From contig SVEI01000002.1 of the NCBI GenBank assembly GCA_015057445.1, positions 40,905 to 104,904 on the forward strand: a stretch of DNA of 64,000 nucleotides. The letters are read 5' to 3'. This document shows positions 23,780-24,676 of the stretch, in pieces. The first letter of the stretch is position 1; every line of letters begins with the position of its first letter. The notes below the pieces were generated by a model that was given only the letters and a program-made list of their open reading frames with translations, had not been told where the DNA came from and made no database searches. The translations under genes and the position numbers were made by a program. This DNA is from Lachnospiraceae bacterium. Its GTDB lineage: Bacteria > Bacillota > Clostridia > Lachnospirales > Lachnospiraceae.

Positions 23780-24238
23780 ATGAATTTCAATATAAAACTA
23801 GTGGTTGTAGGTAAAGTTAAAGAAGATTTTTACAGAAAAAAGCTTGAAGAGTATTACAAATCAATAAGTAAAAAGAACAATTTTCAGGTAGTGGAATTAT
23901 CTGATGAAAGTATTCCGTCTAATCCCAGCCAGGCAGTTATAGACAAGATAAAGATAAAAGAAGGAGATAAAATTTTACAACAAATAAAAGGGAATGATTA
24001 TGTTATTGCCCTTTGTATTGATGGCAAAAGTACGGATTTATCCCTTATGAAAAAACAAATTGAAAAGGCAAGAAGTGCTCAGTGTGAAAATGTAGTATTC
24101 ATAATTGGCGGATCCTTAGGATTAGATGAAAAAGTGGTTAATAGGGCGAATTATAAGATGAGTTTTTCTAATATGACATTTCCGCATCAGCTTATGCGAG
24201 TAATGCTTAGTGAACAAATAGAGAAGGCAGTTTCTTAA
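23780..24238 (+). CDS. rlmH: RlmH-family SPOUT methyltransferase (23S rRNA pseudouridine-1915 N3), lacking conserved C-terminal tail
   Basis: IKLVVVGKVKE, FIIGGSLGLDEKVVNRANYKMSFSNMTFPHQLMRVMLSEQI; then ends EKAVS instead of YRAY...YHK. Confidence 0.85.
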   Translation: MNFNIKLVVVGKVKEDFYRKKLEEYYKSISKKNNFQVVELSDESIPSNPSQAVIDKIKIKEGDKILQQIKGNDYVIALCIDGKSTDLSLMKKQIEKARSAQCENVVFIIGGSLGLDEKVVNRANYKMSFSNMTFPHQLMRVMLSEQIEKAVS

Positions 24239-24258
24239 AAACTGCCTTCTCTATTTGT
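24214..24258. terminator. Perfect 20-bp inverted repeat shared by 3' ends of the two convergent RlmH-like genes (putative bidirectional terminator)
   Basis: ACAAATAGAGAAGGCAGTTT / AAACTGCCTTCTCTATTTGT with 5-nt loop CTTAA. Confidence 0.75.
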
Positions 24259-24676
24259 GATAAGTAATATTGTTGAGTATAGTGTATGCTCGGTATATTT
24301 GTTCTGTAAGAACCGTTATTGTAATATCTGCACTCATTGAAAAAGATGACAAATTAAATTGGTCTATGTTTGCATAGTTAATGCTTTGGTGTAAAGCAGA
24401 GGTTGATTCGGGATTGGTAATAACAAATTCAATACAAGATATACCTTTTAGATTGTGATTTTTTATTATTTCAGCCAGCTCGGTTGATGTAGGAGAGTTG
24501 ATGCCAGGTAGAATGATATATACTTTTGAGTTAGTCTTGAAAGATATTTTTCCTAAAACCTTGTAAGTACGTATAATCACCTTGCAAAAAGGAGAAGTTC
24601 TTTTAATGTATTCATCTATGGCTGACTGTAAATTTTTATCAATTTTTTTTGATTCTACGTGAATAATAATTTCCAT
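24251..24676 (-). CDS. Divergent RlmH-like protein, SAM-binding loop degenerate, canonical C-terminal tail retained
   Basis: Colinear with RlmH: MEIIIHVESKKI...AIDEYIKRTSPFCKVII, ...SPTSTELAEIIKN, FVITNPES in place of FVIGGSLG, ends LTEQIYRAYTILNNITYHK; GGTGA upstream of the start. Confidence 0.65.
   Translation of the reverse strand: MEIIIHVESKKIDKNLQSAIDEYIKRTSPFCKVIIRTYKVLGKISFKTNSKVYIILPGINSPTSTELAEIIKNHNLKGISCIEFVITNPESTSALHQSINYANIDQFNLSSFSMSADITITVLTEQIYRAYTILNNITYHK

Follow-up and report, generated by a model that had tools for sequence, protein, structure and literature searches.

Complementary gene pairs of the RlmH family in clostridial genomes suggest a heterodimeric 23S rRNA methyltransferase

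Results and discussion

Two RlmH-type genes with complementary features

The genome of a Lachnospiraceae bacterium (assembly GCA_015057445.1) encodes two genes of the RlmH family, rlmH-A and rlmH-B (A and B below), the products of which, judging from the residues that each has kept, very probably form an obligate heterodimeric RlmH with one composite active site that would methylate Ψ1915 of 23S rRNA. Both genes lie in a stretch of 64,000 nucleotides (contig SVEI01000002.1, positions 40,905 to 104,904), the whole of which is called the window here. They are convergent, as described in an earlier note on this DNA, and the open reading frames were located with the intervening repeat as follows:

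23780-24238, + strand: rlmH-A, putative AdoMet-binding, tail-less RlmH subunit (152 aa; PF02590, 140.6 bits, profile positions 2-144 of 154)
24251-24676, - strand: rlmH-B, putative tail-donating RlmH subunit without AdoMet loop (141 aa; PF02590, 60.4 bits, profile positions 1-154 of 154)
24214-24258, no strand: 20-bp perfect inverted repeat (arms 24214-24233 and 24239-24258), possible shared terminator hairpin

A contains the motifs FIIGGSLGL and NMTFPHQL(MR), retains E145 (the equivalent of E138 in E. coli) and has the C-terminus LSEQIEKAVS. The lack of a canonical tail, which the earlier note had pointed out, is borne out by the sequence alignment and the structure model, in which A stops right after helix alpha5 with nothing beyond. 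B is colinear with RlmH, as had also been noted, over the whole length of the profile; the described exchanges are present (TNPES where GGSLG is expected, SMSADIT where MTFPHQL is expected), so that GGSxG and TFPHQ are gone, and EY.KR, EQIYRA and YHK are retained, the C-terminus being LTEQIYRAYTILNNITYHK. About 20 residues near E. coli positions ~41-60 are also missing from B in the alignment.

Both proteins score above the PF02590 cut-off of 27 bits; the match of B therefore identifies the minus-strand open reading frame as RlmH-related, and PF02590 is matched by all 31 B members of group A1. The RlmH equivalog models NF000985 and TIGR00246 (cut-offs 172 and 149.7) gave scores below their cut-offs for A (164 and 124.5) and for B (52.8 and 39.5), and thus neither window chain alone qualifies as RlmH. 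The AdoMet loop and the Tyr-His-(Arg/Lys) tail, which in one chain denote a complete enzyme, are combined neither in A nor in B; in the pair taken together both are present, the loop from A and the tail from B.

The inverted repeat between A and B, the 5-nt loop of which contains the stop codon of A, has a predicted folding energy of -34.3 kcal/mol (z -9.99). It is possibly a terminator hairpin shared by A and B; a terminator scan gave no flag for this repeat, and no T-run follows it in the sequence.

Partition of conserved residues

An alignment of 63 A, 63 B and 112 full-length RlmH sequences, numbered by E. coli RlmH, was examined at the 54 positions that are conserved, by residue class, in at least 90% of full-length RlmH. 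The claim that each protein lacks what the other retains holds across this alignment: A alone keeps 19 positions, B alone keeps 13 and both keep 8, none is lost from both, and the rest are intermediate. The probability of zero overlap of losses at random is p = 0.0013, or 0.0099 without the six class-defining sites, both values being rough because the sites are not independent.

The sites kept by A only include G76, G103, G104, G107, T126, H129 and R133; T126 and H129 are retained in 100% of A, and the Tyr-His-Arg/Lys tail is missing in essentially all 63 aligned A. The sites kept by B only include R25, R26, Y141, R142, Y152, H153 and R154, and the equivalents of R25, R26, R142, Y152, H153 and R154 are identical or basic in 100% of B. 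Little or no variation is seen at the AdoMet-loop glycines of A or at Y152/H153/K154 of B. E138 is retained by B and also by A (95%), and since it is found in both partners it does not discriminate the halves.

A composite active site across the RlmH dimer, mentioned in the earlier note, is documented for E. coli RlmH, in which one monomer provides the AdoMet pocket and the other provides R25, R26, R142, R154 and the catalytic tail (PMC5430550). The E. coli variants Y152F, H153F, R154A, E138A and E138Q are inactive yet still dimeric, and in the wild-type dimer the binding of one AdoMet is tight, a second requiring millimolar concentrations (PMC5430550). By alignment, A and B divide the residues between them along the same line as the half-sites of E. 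coli RlmH, with E138 as the exception.

Distribution of the pair

The search proposed in the earlier note as a check, for tail-less RlmH occurring together with GGSxG-less RlmH, found the pair in 70 genomes with 21 genus codes and 11 family codes, co-occurrence counts that are inflated by shared ancestry. In the genus of the window, 30 genomes have the pair, five have a single full-length RlmH, and two (incomplete) have none. Beyond that genus, pairs occur in seven further genera of the same family, five further families of its order and another five families of the phylum. Many clostridial gut bacteria and thermophiles are among the carriers, and those with names include Thermoanaerobacter wiegelii Rt8.B1 (NC_015958), Youngiibacter fragilis 232.1, Eubacterium sp. 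An11 and Candidatus Scybalomonas excrementigallinarum. The pair is found in 10 of 10 species of genus g524 (Thermoanaerobacter, which includes T. wiegelii, with identical coordinates in G986 and G584), and one full-length gene in 10 of 10 species of its sister genera g419 and g593 of the same family; several genomes of these three genera are closed.

In the pair genomes that were searched whole, the search detected no full-length RlmH in addition to the pair; the absence of a third RlmH gene from G302 and G417 rests on a profile search, and the host genome of the pair at locus L104 lay outside the whole-genome search. Among the genomes searched there was none with A and without B, and B without a detected A occurred in two incomplete genomes (G331 and G369).

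PF02590 matches three places in the genome that hosts the window, namely A, B and, on contig C48, another gene of the B type. The third place had been considered as a full-length RlmH and was rejected as such, and no intact full-length rlmH was found by the PF02590 search in this assembly (117 contigs, 82.4% complete), which bears on the third gene that the earlier note proposed looking for. The second B (locus L090, positions 1039-1467) adjoins a HAD gene, an IS3-type element and a Fic-like open reading frame, with no A on contig C48. Its HAD neighbor is 88% identical to the HAD gene of the window, and the second B itself is closest to B of G003 (74%), being only 64% identical to B of the window. 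This contig may have been co-binned, or it may carry a true second copy.

Gene order and linkage

In most of the genus of the window, the order rsgA-rpe-thiN-putP-A><B-HAD is conserved, the neighbors being genes that we take, from their sequences, to be those so named; the full-length rlmH of this genus sits elsewhere, not at the conserved locus of the pair. The majority of pairs are convergent, within ~150 bp of each other or with an overlap of 10, 17 or 29 bp. The remaining arrangements include pairs that are convergent and spaced (2.5 kb in G191, 13.6 kb in G045) or in tandem, with A upstream of B (G633, 13 bp overlap; G981, 13 bp apart; G242, 1.1 kb; Eubacterium An11, 7.6 kb). A and B are separated by 410 kb in the closed genome G271, are far apart in the closed genome G057, and, in Youngiibacter fragilis among others, lie on different contigs. 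Linkage is not required for the two genes to persist as a pair.

In Bacillus, rlmH neighbors a gene for an HtrA-like protease. A adjoins such a gene in T. wiegelii, which by analogy would suggest that A occupies the ancestral rlmH locus there.

Among the overlapping pairs (L101, L241, L275, L034 and others), where the overlap is 10 bp A ends in ..YL or ..HL followed by the stop codon, and its final codons appear to be antisense to the conserved Tyr-His-Lys codons of B; with the 17-bp overlap, A ends in ICDR or similar. At locus L269 (G345), A ends early, before helix alpha5 is complete, with the unrelated-looking sequence QLARVSPTCGRHGC, which may reflect a frameshift, a sequencing error or a broken pair.

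Selection, folds and phylogeny

Pairwise dN/dS, where estimable, was about 0.04-0.16 for A and about 0.07-0.28 for B. Both open reading frames are conserved, a point on which the earlier note had proposed a check, and both genes are under purifying selection. For both proteins the closest PDB entries to the AlphaFold2 model are RlmH structures. The model of A (pLDDT 94.7) has a TM score of 0.92 to S. aureus RlmH (4fak), and that of B (pLDDT 92.3) a TM score of ~0.8 to the RlmH structures 1vh0 and 1to0; both proteins are thus modelled with the RlmH-type SPOUT fold. The distance matrices of A and B are correlated (r = 0.78, with 0 of 2000 permutations as high), a correlation to which shared ancestry contributes. 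Helix 69 of the 23S rRNA has kept its target sequence in the closed pair genomes.

In phylogenetic analysis of a short alignment, which leaves the tree unresolved, all B sequences fall into one group (SH-aLRT 92) and a single A clade is not rejected (AU p 0.758). The pairs may therefore go back to one origin followed by transfer or loss, in which case the many separate origins that were also considered would not be needed.

Proposed enzyme and alternative explanations

We infer from the above a physical heterodimer, its activity, its target nucleotide and the order of events by which it arose. A would fold into the RlmH knot and bind AdoMet; B would fold into the same knot, would no longer bind AdoMet, and would pack against A like the second protomer of the E. 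coli homodimer, supplying the Tyr-His-Lys C-terminal tail, the arginine of helix alpha5 and, for helix 69, the basic EY.KR patch. The single composite site of the A-B dimer would methylate N3 of pseudouridine 1915 of 23S rRNA in the 70S ribosome, and the A2 and B2 homodimers would be inactive. A dimer with one site is plausible, and one site should suffice, because RlmH binds only one AdoMet tightly per dimer. Most likely, an ordinary rlmH gene was duplicated and the copies then underwent complementary loss of half-sites.

Alternatively, A could be the working enzyme, either as a homodimer or with another tail donor, and B a paralog that has taken on another function, for example in the regulation of A or on a different RNA, as might be expected from the greater divergence of B (mean identity 35%, compared with 43% for A) and from the free variation of its former AdoMet loop. 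This is improbable, since A lacks in essentially all cases a tail of which each residue has point mutants that are inactive in E. coli, B has kept in every case tail residues that a new role would not need, and A was never seen without B. There is even less to recommend the idea that both proteins have left methylation and become an inactive ribosome-binding or assembly factor: the AdoMet-loop glycines and T126/H129 of A, as well as the tail residues of B, have hardly changed, and the pair occurs instead of the methylating enzyme RlmH, not alongside it.

The perfect 20-bp palindrome at the A/B junction of the window could be taken to mean that the tail of A was cut off in assembly, or that one or both genes are decaying, a reading to which we give almost no credence. 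The same truncation point of A recurs in 70 assemblies, including closed single-contig genomes, and some of these pairs are in tandem or distant, on which grounds the assembly artefact was rejected. Decay of a paralog, an alternative offered by the earlier note, is contradicted by the invariant catalytic residues and by dN/dS values well under 1 for both genes. The heterodimeric enzyme with one composite site is thus preferred over these readings.

Relation to known systems

The A-B pair resembles RlmH (YbeA, OrfX; PF02590, COG1576), the 23S rRNA pseudouridine-1915 N3-methyltransferase, in fold, in profile, in its AdoMet loop (in A) and in its catalytic tail (in B), and the antiparallel dimer with a composite site that characterizes RlmH is expected of the pair too. 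In known RlmH, however, a single gene encodes both protomers of the homodimer and the two half-sites are equivalent, whereas A and B come from two genes that each keep one half, and the predicted enzyme is an obligate heterodimer having a single site. SPOUT enzymes are described as dimers in which the active site is formed on dimerisation, with the exceptions of the monomeric Trm10 and Sfm1 (PMC9508554). A heterodimer of two SPOUT methyltransferases is formed likewise by mt-LAF5 and mt-LAF6, which act in assembly of the Trypanosoma brucei mitoribosome (mentioned in PMC12123411). These are eukaryotic mitochondrial factors that touch the A-loop of large-subunit rRNA, and are neither RlmH nor bacterial. 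A yeast SPOUT heterodimer has also been suggested once, and so heterodimers have precedents among SPOUT proteins in general. A search of the open-access literature turned up no account of an RlmH that is split or heterodimeric, nor of a SPOUT heterodimer from bacteria.

Among other heterodimeric RNA-modifying enzymes, METTL3-METTL14, Tad2-Tad3 and yeast Trm6-Trm61, which one source prints as Trm6p/Trm62p, consist of duplicated subunits; in one of the two the catalytic site is degenerate and the role is in binding or structure. These are class I methyltransferases or deaminases, not knotted SPOUT proteins like A and B, and differ also in that A and B each lost a different half of one shared site. 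The pair is in all likelihood a widespread, possibly ancient bacterial heterodimeric SPOUT methyltransferase with one site, which would have replaced the ordinary single-gene RlmH in about 20 clostridial genera.

Whether one or two sites work in each RlmH dimer has so far been argued from one structure and E. coli point mutants. A and B amount to evolution's own experiment on this point, the two roles being on separate genes and separately mutable, and offer an unusually clean case of homodimer subfunctionalisation, in many species and readable residue by residue. Because the window proteins match only the general RlmH profile, below the equivalog cut-offs, such genomes may be annotated with two copies of RlmH or with none while having one split enzyme.

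Other variants of rlmH

RlmH was undetectable in several nearly complete genomes of the same family (G143, G177, G195, G225, G115 and others), which have apparently lost the modification enzyme. At five loci (L112, L155, L131, L151 and L173), a single RlmH has GAS or GSS in place of the GGS start of the loop, with the tail intact. Genome G260 has, at C1:4540042-4543633 (L209 and L238), two rlmH genes of the full-length type 3 kb apart, the second of which is broken by a TAA codon; this double rlmH is possibly an early stage of duplication.
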